Position numbers and translations under genes: made by a program. The notes below the pieces were generated by a model. The model searched no databases. It was not told where the DNA came from and saw only the letters and a program-made list of their open reading frames with translations. Below are positions 1 through 3,400 of a stretch of DNA of 40,386 bases, in pieces. Source of the DNA: an uncultured Elusimicrobia bacterium (GTDB taxonomy: Bacteria; Elusimicrobiota; Elusimicrobia; Elusimicrobiales; UBA9959); contig CAIRNJ010000090.1 in assembly GCA_903879915.1 (NCBI GenBank), forward strand, positions 1-40,386. The letters are read 5' to 3'. Every line of letters begins with the position of its first letter. Position 1 is the first letter of the stretch.

Positions 1-40
1 CGTGCTGCCCCGCCCGCCCCGGGCGGGGCAGCACGTTTTT
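1..40 (+). terminator. Hairpin plus T-run, terminator-like, in left inverted repeat
   Basis: Two 15-nt arms (1-15 and 21-35) pair perfectly around a 5-nt loop and are followed by five T at 36-40. This is a textbook intrinsic terminator for transcription entering from the left. The mirrored copy at 2126-2160 has its T-run on the minus strand, so each end would block transcription coming in from outside while letting outward transcription pass. Confidence 0.6.
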
Positions 41-119
41 CAGATTTCTGCATTTGTTTTTTTCCTTTAAAATTAAAAAATTAAATGGCGCAAAAAATTC
101 TGCATTTTTAATTTTTTTG
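1..119 (+). repeat. Left copy of 119-bp perfect inverted repeat
   Basis: Bases 1-119 are the exact reverse complement of 2042-2160. The copy has a GC-rich palindrome (1-35) followed by an AT-rich 84 bp. Read on the minus strand it carries the same ribosome-binding site, ATG and first 17 to 18 codons used by miaB at the other end, so it could start a reading frame that leaves the window to the left. Confidence 0.9.
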
Positions 120-385
120 AAGAGCGGGGGCACCCGGTTGATAGAAAACCCTCCCAGGCTCGCTGTTCGCTCGCCCTGGCGGGCTTTCCTGTTAATTAAA
201 TGTCGCCCCCGGAGAGGCGGAGGCTAAAACCGGTACAGCCCGGGCAAGCCGGGCTGCCCCGGTATTAGCAGGAATTTATCCCGCCCGCCCATTCTTGCCC
301 GCTTTCCCGCTGCCGCAGCGTAAAAGCGTGCATTTACCCCTAAAAGAAAAAGACAAAGAACTGTAAAATAACGTATAATACCCTT
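120..385. other. Non-coding leader region of the recombinase cassette
   Basis: I find no convincing gene here. A perfect 8-bp-stem hairpin lies at 236-256 (arms CAGCCCGG and CCGGGCTG) without a following T-run; it may be a recombinase or regulator binding site. The 3' part becomes A-rich and ends in the promoter of the HTH gene. Confidence 0.4.
374..379 (+). promoter_or_regulatory. -10 box (TATAAT) of the HTH-recombinase genes
   Basis: A perfect TATAAT lies 6 nt before the ATG at 386, so transcription should begin at or next to the start codon. No Shine-Dalgarno sequence fits between them, which suggests a leaderless mRNA. A -35 element is not obvious. Confidence 0.55.
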
Positions 386-559
386 ATGAAGCGCTACAAC
401 ATGGTTTACGCCGCGCAGGCGCTGGGCGTAACAAGACAAACCCTGTACAACTGGATCAAGAAAGGCTGGGTTAAGCCTGGCAGGGATTACCGTGATTACC
501 CCGTATTCACGGAGGCGGACATCCGCAAACTCAAAAAGTGGAAAGAGACCATAAGGTAG
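386..559 (+). CDS. Small MerR-type helix-turn-helix protein (excisionase/recombinase regulator-like)
   Basis: This 57-residue protein starts MKRYNMVYAAQALGVTRQTL and ends in a basic tail. Residues about 7-30 read as a helix-turn-helix (AAQALGVTRQTLYNWIKKG), followed by a wing-like stretch (Asp-Tyr-Pro-Val-Phe-Thr) and a helix, as in MerR-type or Xis-like DNA-binding modules. The gene stops 4 nt before the serine recombinase begins, so the two are almost certainly co-transcribed. Small HTH proteins beside large serine recombinases often act as directionality factors or repressors; that role is inferred here. The start is fixed by a TATAAT box only 6 nt upstream. Confidence 0.75.
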   Translation: MKRYNMVYAAQALGVTRQTLYNWIKKGWVKPGRDYRDYPVFTEADIRKLKKWKETIR

Positions 560-563
560 CCAT

Positions 564-2195
564 ATGAAGACCGCTCTATATCTGCGAGTATCCACGGAAG
601 ACCAGGCGAGGGAAGGCTATTCCCTTGAGGTCCAGAGGGAAACCCTCGAAGCTTTTGTAAAACGGGAAGGCCACGAAATTTTCAAGGTCTACTCGGACGA
701 CGGTATAAGCGGCGCCACCACGCGCAGGCCCGCGCTTGCCGCACTTTTGGCTGACGCCAAAGGCGGCAAGTTCGGGCTGGTACTGGTAGCCAAACTGGAC
801 CGCTTCAGCCGCAACCTGAAAGACCTCTTAATTCTGGTGGACGAGCTTTGCAGCTACGGCGTAGGCTTTAAGTCGGCGGGGGAACCCTTTGACACCACAA
901 CCTCGGCCGGCAAGCTTATGTTTCAGCAGCTTGGCAGTTTCGCGGAGTTCGAGCGCAACCGCATTGCGGAGCGCGTATTCCCCGGCATGGTCAAAGGCGT
1001 TCAAAAGGGTAATTGGCAGGGTTCGCGCTACGCGCCCTACGGTTACGCCTACAACAAGCCCGCCAAGCTGCTGGAGCTGGTTGAGAGCGAGGCCGAGGTT
1101 GTGCGGCAAATCTACGCCCTGTACCTGGAGGGCAAAAGCACTTTATCCATAGGCGCGGCCCTTACCAAACAGGGCGTCAGAAACCGCAAGGGCAACTATT
1201 TCGGCACCAAGACCATAGGCGATATCCTTAAAAACCCTATCTACACCGGAAAGATCGTCTGGAACACCCACCATTACGACAAGGCCAAGAGAACGCCAAA
1301 GGGCTATAAATACGTCAAAAACCCCGCCAGCGAGGTTATTACCGCCCAGGGCAGGCATCTCCCCATAATCAGCGCGGAAGCCTTTGCGCAAGCGCAAAAG
1401 CTTCGCGCTGAAAAACGCATAACCATCCGGCAGGCCAAGCCGGGGGACTACTTATTGTCCGGCCTGATATTCTGCGGCAACTGCAATCACAAGTTCGTGG
1501 GCGCGTCCGCGGTCTCCAACCACCGCACCAAGGCCACCAAGAAATGGTACCGTTGCTCTTCAATAACCAACAGTTATAAGACCTGCCACAATAAGAGCAT
1601 CAAGGCGGAAGTCATCGAGCCGCAGCTTGAATTATTCCTGGAACTGTTGCTCAGAAGTAATGAATTTGGGAACCGATGGCCGAACATGACCGTGCCGCCC
1701 ATAAAGTTGCCGGAAGACGAAAAAGAGGCTAAAAAGGCGGTTCACCAAAGCCTGTCAGACAATTTCGCTAAACAGGCGAAATTGACTGACGCCTACATAG
1801 AAGGCCTCATGTCCAAGGAAGTTTTCGAGGCTTCAAATAAAGAGCTTATGGAGAAAGGCGAAGAGCTGAAAAAGCTGGCGGCCTTCTACGATTTGCGCCA
1901 GATAGACCGCGAAAAATCCGCGGACTATCTGGCGAAGGCGCGCACGTTCCTTTCCGACGGTAACATAGGAGAAAAAGAGCCGGACGCCGCCGACAAGAAA
2001 AGGCTCCTGGGCGTGCTGGTCAGGAACGTGAAAGTCGGGGACAAAAAAATTAAAAATGCAGAATTTTTTGCGCCATTTAATTTTTTAATTTTAAAGGAAA
2101 AAAACAAATGCAGAAATCTGAAAAACGTGCTGCCCCGCCCGGGGCGGGCGGGGCAGCACGGCGGGTCTGTATTATCACCTTCGGCTGCCAGATGA
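564..2195 (+). CDS. Large serine recombinase (resolvase/invertase family)
   Basis: This 543-residue site-specific DNA recombinase has an N-terminal resolvase catalytic domain (about 3-150). The nucleophile is Ser10 in LYLRVSTEDQ, and the conserved motifs KLDRFSRN and the FAEFERNRIAERV helix are present. A Recombinase domain follows (about 165-275), then a zinc ribbon with CGNC near 304 and further Cys near 335-345, and a charged coiled coil (about 380-460). The FFAPFNFL segment near 509-516 looks like the usual C-terminal core. The last roughly 30 residues are encoded inside the inverted repeat and the start of miaB, so they are probably non-native read-through past a missing stop codon. It overlaps miaB by 88 bp in another frame. 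Confidence 0.9.
   Translation: MKTALYLRVSTEDQAREGYSLEVQRETLEAFVKREGHEIFKVYSDDGISGATTRRPALAALLADAKGGKFGLVLVAKLDRFSRNLKDLLILVDELCSYGVGFKSAGEPFDTTTSAGKLMFQQLGSFAEFERNRIAERVFPGMVKGVQKGNWQGSRYAPYGYAYNKPAKLLELVESEAEVVRQIYALYLEGKSTLSIGAALTKQGVRNRKGNYFGTKTIGDILKNPIYTGKIVWNTHHYDKAKRTPKGYKYVKNPASEVITAQGRHLPIISAEAFAQAQKLRAEKRITIRQAKPGDYLLSGLIFCGNCNHKFVGASAVSNHRTKATKKWYRCSSITNSYKTCHNKSIKAEVIEPQLELFLELLLRSNEFGNRWPNMTVPPIKLPEDEKEAKKAVHQSLSDNFAKQAKLTDAYIEGLMSKEVFEASNKELMEKGEELKKLAAFYDLRQIDREKSADYLAKARTFLSDGNIGEKEPDAADKKRLLGVLVRNVKVGDKKIKNAEFFAPFNFLILKEKNKCRNLKNVLPRPGRAGQHGGSVLSPSAAR
2042..2160 (-). repeat. Right copy of 119-bp perfect inverted repeat
   Basis: This is the exact reverse complement of 1-119. 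It contains the 3' coding end of the serine recombinase, the AAAGGA Shine-Dalgarno-like site and ATG of miaB, and a 15-bp-stem hairpin (2126-2160) that is translated as the N-terminus of MiaB. The match ends at 2042. Confidence 0.9.
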
Positions 2196-3400
2196 ACGAG
2201 GCGGACTCGGAGAACATCGCGGCGTCTTTCAGACGTCGCGGGTTCGAGCTGACCGACGAGATCAAGAAGGCCGACGCCGTGGTGGTGAACACCTGCACGG
2301 TGCGGCAGCGCGCCGAGGACAAGGCCATCTCGCAGATAGGGCGGCTGCGCCTGTGGAAAGAAAAGCGGCCCGAGGGCAAGCTGTTCGTGGTGGGCTGCGC
2401 CGCGCAGAAGCTGGGGGGGAAGTACCTGAAGAACCGCTTCCCGTTCGTGGACGAGGTGGTGGGCGCCAAGGCTATAGAGGATTTCGAGGACGCGCTGATA
2501 GCGCAGTTCGGCCCGGACGGCGGGGCCGAGGCGGCGCACCAGAACATGTTCCGGTCGCCGCAGACCGCCTACGTTACCATCATGCGCGGCTGCTCGCTCA
2601 AATGCTCCTACTGCATAGTGCCGGCCGTGCGCGGGCCGGCGGTGTTCCTGCCGGCGGGGGAAATACTGGCCGACGCCGCGGCGAAAATAAAGGCCGGCGC
2701 CAAAGAGATTGTTCTGCTGGGCCAGACCGTCAACGCCTGGCGCGGCGGAAAGACCACGTTCTCCGAACTCTTAAACAAAGTCCTGGCCCTGCCGGGGCTG
2801 CAGCGGCTGCGCTTCATGAGCCCGCACCCGCTTTATTTCGACGACTCTTTTACCGCGCTGCTGGCGCGCGAAAAGAAGCTGGCCCGCTACCTGCACCTGC
2901 CGGTGCAGTCGGGCTCGGACCGCATCCTTAAGGCCATGCGCCGCGGCTATACCCGCGCGCAGTACCTGGGCCTGCTGAAGAAGCTGCGCGCGGCGGTGCC
3001 GGGCATGACCGTCTCGACGGATTTTATAGTGGGCTACCCGGGCGAGACCGAAGAGGATTTCAACGATACGCTCTCCATGGTGGCGGAGGGCGGGTTCACC
3101 ATGGCCTATTGTTTCAAGTATTCCCCGCGCACGGACAGGCCGGAAATGGCCGCCACCATAAGCGGGACCGTGATGAAAGCCAGGCTTGAAAAACTGCTGG
3201 CAGCCGTCAAAAAGAACTCGAGCCTTGTTTTAAATGAAAGAATTGGTAAAATAGAGGAAGTTCTCTTTGAAACAGAAACCTACGGCCGCACCTCAGGCAA
3301 TTTCTCCCTGCGGGTGAAGGCGGGCGGCACCCCCGGGAAAATGGCCGAAGTACTGGTGGCCGGGGCCGAGAAAAATACTTTGAACGGAAAGGTACTATGA
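2108..3400 (+). CDS. miaB: tRNA-2-methylthio-N6-dimethylallyladenosine synthase MiaB
   Basis: This radical-SAM methylthiotransferase converts i6A37 to ms2i6A37 in tRNAs reading UNN codons. The N-terminal UPF0004 domain has the auxiliary-cluster cysteines C27 (FGCQMN), C63 (NTCTVR) and C97 (VVGCAAQ). The radical-SAM motif is C162-x3-C166-x2-C169 (GCSLKCSYC), and a TRAM-like C-terminus follows from about 370. At 430 residues it is close to family length. The start at 2108 follows AAAGGA with about 9 nt spacing, and no other start precedes the FGCQMN motif. The first 18 codons come from the inverted repeat and its 15-bp hairpin, so the native start may have been displaced by the upstream cassette. 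It overlaps the PilZ gene by 4 bp (ATGA), and miaA lies one gene further on, matching the pathway. Confidence 0.93.
   Translation: MQKSEKRAAPPGAGGAARRVCIITFGCQMNEADSENIAASFRRRGFELTDEIKKADAVVVNTCTVRQRAEDKAISQIGRLRLWKEKRPEGKLFVVGCAAQKLGGKYLKNRFPFVDEVVGAKAIEDFEDALIAQFGPDGGAEAAHQNMFRSPQTAYVTIMRGCSLKCSYCIVPAVRGPAVFLPAGEILADAAAKIKAGAKEIVLLGQTVNAWRGGKTTFSELLNKVLALPGLQRLRFMSPHPLYFDDSFTALLAREKKLARYLHLPVQSGSDRILKAMRRGYTRAQYLGLLKKLRAAVPGMTVSTDFIVGYPGETEEDFNDTLSMVAEGGFTMAYCFKYSPRTDRPEMAATISGTVMKARLEKLLAAVKKNSSLVLNERIGKIEEVLFETETYGRTSGNFSLRVKAGGTPGKMAEVLVAGAEKNTLNGKVL

Follow-up and report, generated by a model that had tools for sequence, protein, structure and literature searches.

A large serine recombinase next to miaB in Elusimicrobia probably belongs to an integrated island with paired inverted attachment sites

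The recombinase module at the start of miaB

The window, a 40,386-nucleotide stretch of DNA from an uncultured Elusimicrobia bacterium, opens with a small helix-turn-helix (HTH) gene followed by a large serine recombinase (LSR) gene whose 3' end overlaps the start of miaB (Table 1). The recombinase carries the Pfam domains PF00239 (Resolvase), PF07508 (Recombinase) and PF13408 (zinc ribbon) in this order in one long protein, as expected of an LSR. Positions 1-119 form a 119-nt inverted repeat with positions 2042-2160, at 100% identity across a spacer of 1922 nt, a match for which the probability of chance is negligible; the right arm takes in both the C-terminus of the recombinase and the start of miaB. 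The first-pass annotation had described an exact 119-bp inverted repeat enclosing an HTH gene and an LSR, which is borne out by the sequence match and by the Pfam domains. Conservation of the promoter-like TGTAAA-N5-GTATAAT upstream of the ATG extends to 18 relatives, and the terminator-like hairpin at the left end would block transcription coming into the module from that side.

Table 1. Features at the left end of the window.
Feature	Position	Strand	Remarks
Left M arm	1..119	-	inverted copy of att half-site M and recombinase 3' end; clipped by contig start
Hairpin	1..35	+	perfect, 16-bp stem, then TTTTT; terminator-like
Promoter-like site, HTH-recombinase genes	350..380	+	TGTAAA-N5-GTATAAT immediately before ATG
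Small MerR-type helix-turn-helix protein, 57 aa	386..559	+	Pfam MerR_1, E 5.5e-6
Large serine recombinase, 543 aa	564..2195	+	ends Ser-Pro-Ser-Ala-Ala-Arg
Right M arm	2042..2187	+	recombinase 3' end, substitute miaB start and left half of putative attR
miaB (tRNA methylthiotransferase)	2108..3400	+	up to 2187 element-derived; from 2188 native gene
Hairpin copy in right arm	2126..2160	-	T-run on minus strand
Core TTCGGCTG	2180..2187	+	junction 2187/2188, within miaB coding sequence

A search of 101 genomes gave 20 near-complete units whose recombinase is 66-100% identical, the relatives being Elusimicrobia MAGs from several projects. In many of them the recombinase C-terminal coding sequence is repeated, inverted, upstream of the gene. 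Inverted M arms were present in 17/17 units with enough flank, some of them clipped by a contig end as in the window; three units (G009, G023, G042), where contig ends were too near to judge, were left out of this count. Relatives bearing the recombinase without the left repeat, the contrary case named beforehand, were looked for among these assessable units and are absent. Eight units read through the left arm into an adjoining sequence, hereafter T, and in these eight the arms measured from the core span 146-174 bp and are 95-100% identical within a unit, against mostly 82-88% between units; the two M arms of G026 are 87% alike. The same test on 11 distant LSR loci (L025-L035, ~1.5 kb flanks) revealed no inverted arms, nor was such a repeat found within the stretch examined of an Omnitrophota relative (L161, 45% identity). 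Base 1 of the window is the first base of its contig (C90), so the left arm is truncated: about 27 bp more are expected before an inverted core (T'/M'; slashes mark the junction). The G058 module, 97% identical to the window's, has an arm of 146 bp, 27 bp longer, that reaches the core and then T. The repeat is therefore genuine and tied to the recombinase, as first described, but the window copy is not the complete arm.

Junctions at a single base and the recombinase tail

Arm M ends at the core ...TTCGGMTG/ inside the miaB coding sequence. Aligned miaB starts reveal an empty site, m/miaB', in G027, G005, G015 and G020, with the native promoter and a native start ending ...ACNTTYGGMTG/CCARATGAA. 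The native promoter is found joined to T (m/T) in G028, G018, G014, G009, G002 and G025, M/T junctions occur in many relatives at the same core base, and M/miaB' adjoins the recombinase in 18 genomes. At the latter junction M takes the place of all sequence to the left and brings an ATG of its own together with codons for the same Ile-Ile-Thr-Phe-Gly-Cys. All four expected combinations of the halves M, T, m and miaB' are present, joined at one base, and because the M-side core is common to all of them, crossover should take place at or within TTCGGMTG. The four junctions are those expected of attB, attP, attL and attR, and we infer which acts as which; in this putative assignment, attB-, attL- and attR-type junctions lie at a single base of a conserved host gene, as in integrative islands. 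The earlier expectation that LSRs act at short att sites stands: each arm is the M half of one of a pair of inverted att sites. M/T-type sites number 67 in 29 of the 59 family genomes, versus none in the 282 other genomes of the phylum. As a side observation, G027 has eight M/T-type sites on several contigs despite a native, empty miaB, and sites may exist away from this gene.

The recombinase frame runs through the core, and M/T encodes a conserved 18-aa tail. At 30/30 tabulated T junctions this frame reads [ED]L[LW]...LK/E.[LM]Y, while the miaB frame hits TGA at once; among distinct T sequences, 41/42 have the recombinase frame open. Differences among close T pairs occur at rates of 0.13/0.075/0.246 at codon positions 1/2/3, which points to selection on the protein for the tail. 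Where the recombinase joins miaB the tail is replaced by Ala-Arg-stop, and it is this fusion to miaB, not to T, that accounts for the end of the window LSR. The prediction that inversion would change the recombinase C-terminus can accordingly be read directly from the T-joined and miaB-joined ends; insertion into the host gene, or flipping, should alter the end of the protein, and the change between 18 conserved residues and Ala-Arg may constitute a built-in switch of activity or direction.

Island architecture, cargo and a second recombinase family

In a complete unit, the recombinase is bracketed by inverted M and a defence-type cargo by near-identical inverted T of 430-451 bp. In miaB's direction, with primes on M and T marking inversion, G018 reads m/Ta-cargo-Ta'/Mb'-AbiV-rec2-Mb/Tc-cargo-Tc'/Md'-rec1-Md/miaB'. 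Its T pairs are identical (Ta 431/431, Tc 451/451) and Ta and Tc differ from each other; a T pair in G028 matches at 446/448 positions, but the G028 array does not split cleanly into units, its T pairs being partly mismatched. An inverted M pair together with an inverted T pair implies two M/T sites in inverted orientation if the unit were closed as a circle, and the 119-bp repeat of the window is the M pair of such a unit. The island spans ~36 kb in G018 and 40-62 kb in G028, and the window contig is without its own T side and cargo. Separately, a single M/T was found in the window's genome (L055:1-417, contig C24); the gene in front of it is not a recombinase, and the site is part of a different cassette. 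Contig C24 may hold another part of the window's island.

Modules appear to be shared across lineages. The next 600 bp of miaB beyond the module common to the window and G058, which belong to different genera, are 69% identical, against the 97% of the module itself, and G018 rec1 and G028 rec2 are 97.7% identical core to core with miaB and T, respectively, as right-hand neighbours. Longer modules, of 3.6 and 3.5 kb, are those of G018 rec2 and G002; one of them encloses AbiV.

The cargo includes type I restriction-modification with PrrC, AbiV, a SIR2-like protein, a DUF4143 ATPase, the PADLOC candidate PDC-M21B and a STAND NTPase. Of ORFs of at least 130 aa, 78/85 are co-directional with miaB, including 31/31 in three T-bracketed cargoes. 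We also noted two small genes, neither with a Pfam match (SKPVYKWxxANEYYMI... and ...EVTVGG/GIATGRNDASINGTIGIW), that turn up together towards one end of every large cargo (L059:6943-7961, L060:8689-9701, L058:9995-11507); they may be core genes of the island. A gene 'MKK..SKPVYKWVSANEYYMI' considered as chromosomal flank was rejected as such, as it recurs in each cargo. Selected annotated cargo proteins included no clear phage or conjugation gene, a viral origin was discarded for want of relatives in IMG/VR, and single-stranded folding of the T region was not convincing (z -1.6). Directly oriented sites flank cassettes of 1.2 to 7.6 kb. Such cassettes (L133:2867-4079, L133:4080-11637, L138:5652-8229, L145:4040-5992, L142:4469-8733, L134:11714-13697) carry accessory genes (Bro-N, SIR2-like, PDC-M21B, DUF3800, DUF4143), and each ends in a substitute miaB start.

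A second LSR family, ~25% identical and with the same domains, adjoins tRNA-Asp, tRNA-Ser and tRNA-His genes (L167, L169, L172, L174). It has inverted pairs of M arms (102-141 bp) and T arms (191-364 bp), and a different tail, TYFAQ[HN]PE, read across its own core. The same anatomy in this family argues that the design is not an accident of one locus. Its T arms share distal T sequence with the miaB family; in L096 and the T matches, a GC-rich non-coding stretch of ~200 bp is common to T arms of both families, with many copies per genome.

Proposed recombination and relation to known elements

It is likely from these arrangements that the left end of the window falls within a recombinase module, part of an integrated mobile island that carries paired inverted att sites, and the 2.1-kb invertible cassette or small mobile element first proposed would instead be one module of a much larger island at miaB, as in G018. 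We propose that a circular element with attP = M/T would recombine with attB = m/miaB' to give attL = m/T and attR = M/miaB', the gene surviving integration through the substitute start given by M. A second, inverted M/T between cargo and recombinase would leave inverted M arms around the recombinase and inverted T arms around the cargo. The module could then invert between this inner site and attR, recombinase and cargo modules could be exchanged within tandem arrays, and the recombinase tail would switch between its form at T and Ala-Arg at miaB. We infer recombination itself throughout, from junctions seen in genome sequences. Still more tentatively, the LSR might use both inverted att sites of its element in the way that FLP works on the 2-micron circle, and recombination might rewrite the enzyme's C-terminal tail. 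Such an enzyme would itself switch integration or direction and need no separate directionality factor; we hold this as a possibility, short of an expectation.

The second, inverted att copy could alternatively be inert, a duplication kept identical by gene conversion in an otherwise ordinary LSR island. Gene conversion is expected to give identity within units and divergence between them, as seen, and the orientation of cargo and modules is nearly uniform; yet the inverted pair is kept in every assessable unit and again in the unrelated LSR family, which suggests selection, and G018 rec1 and G028 rec2 are one module between different neighbours. An inert copy is thus conceivable, though we doubt it.

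We consider it rather unlikely that the module is a self-encoded invertible switch that flips regularly to control miaB or the recombinase. The sites are inverted with identical M halves, and inversion would swap Ala-Arg for the conserved T tail and take the module's promoter off miaB. Both orientations were accordingly sought in relatives. The inverted state was found in G041, where the module's left end abuts an intact M/miaB', an arrangement in which the recombinase would be joined to T and gain the long tail; but this is a single MAG contig that ends within the other arm, and a misjoin across the repeat is possible. Inversion is not seen to be frequent: in 17/18 modules next to miaB the 3' end of the recombinase points to that gene, and the cargo, almost all co-directional, shows no free inversion either.

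A stand-alone small mobile element (HTH gene and recombinase) with long terminal inverted repeats, that is, a new kind of insertion sequence, is very improbable, even though the window alone looks so, the 97%-identical modules of different genera match core to core and the module shared by G018 and G028 has miaB on its right in one and T in the other. The module terminates at the att core, beyond it lies cargo flanked by inverted T arms of its own, and the 3.5-3.6 kb modules, one with AbiV, do not fit. The first-pass annotation had suggested searching related genomes for intact-repeat cassettes at other loci, but all copies with flanks are at miaB or at island M/T junctions; none was seen at unrelated loci with target duplications, and the 2.1 kb transposon was rejected on this ground. 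Finally, an assembly artefact (fold-back or k-mer overlap at the contig end) is barely tenable: the repeat starts at base 1 of its contig, 119 is a k-mer size of some assemblers and relatives often show contig breaks at the repeat, but 16 further units, assembled independently, have these arms too, and the eight read-through units, two of them in genomes on 0.7-0.8 Mb contigs, rule out a fold-back, so that the repeat itself explains the contig break and the assembler may have set only the visible arm length (119 of 146).

Compared with described systems, the island is SCC-like in site and 2-micron-like in layout, and a member of neither. Composite elements are known for SCC (PMC6222049). Like SCCmec and the Enterococcus cassette chromosome (CcrAB, rlmH), it is an LSR island, site-specific in the gene of an RNA-modifying enzyme, with attL/attR and variable accessory cargo. 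However, it lies at the miaB 5' end or at tRNA genes and not at the rlmH 3' end, it has one LSR and a MerR-like gene in place of the Ccr pair, a second full-length att copy is present in inverted orientation, and its att core sits inside the recombinase reading frame, fixing the tail. In the yeast 2-micron circle, a pair of long inverted repeats that each contain a recombination site separates the recombinase side from the other side, and inversion drives amplification of the replicating circle. The likeness to this FLP/FRT system is in layout only: the island has two pairs of inverted repeats, M and T, in integrated form only, its recombinase is a serine and not a tyrosine enzyme, and it sits in the chromosome with no replication genes identified. 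As in integrons, small accessory or defence cassettes stand in arrays behind a native promoter at a fixed site and almost all point the same way; here, however, serine recombinase domains replace the tyrosine integrase IntI that, together with attC sites, defines integrons, and each cassette ends with a substitute host-gene start. In temperate phages and ICEs with a serine integrase, attP likewise adjoins the integrase gene, and integration of the island would similarly be attB x attP, but the island has paired inverted att and no relative among viral contigs.

Our search of open-licence papers found nothing on LSRs with miaB or with Elusimicrobia, and nothing equivalent under wider topics. 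A single attP is usual in LSR islands. The two lineages described here, whose LSRs are ~25% identical, have each kept two inverted att sites that overlap the recombinase frame, with a codon-selected tail beyond the core, and the paired-att island is a natural system in which control of LSR direction becomes testable. It would also offer defence-gene islands a concrete means of assembly and exchange, in a phylum where the literature searched describes no such element. The host gene is in effect held hostage, miaB relying on the element for its start. As a separate observation, at L148:2432-2697 and L144:2801-3913 a decayed miaB start fused to an M-type arm is followed, 0.3-1.1 kb downstream, by an intact miaB with its native promoter, an apparent gene replacement.
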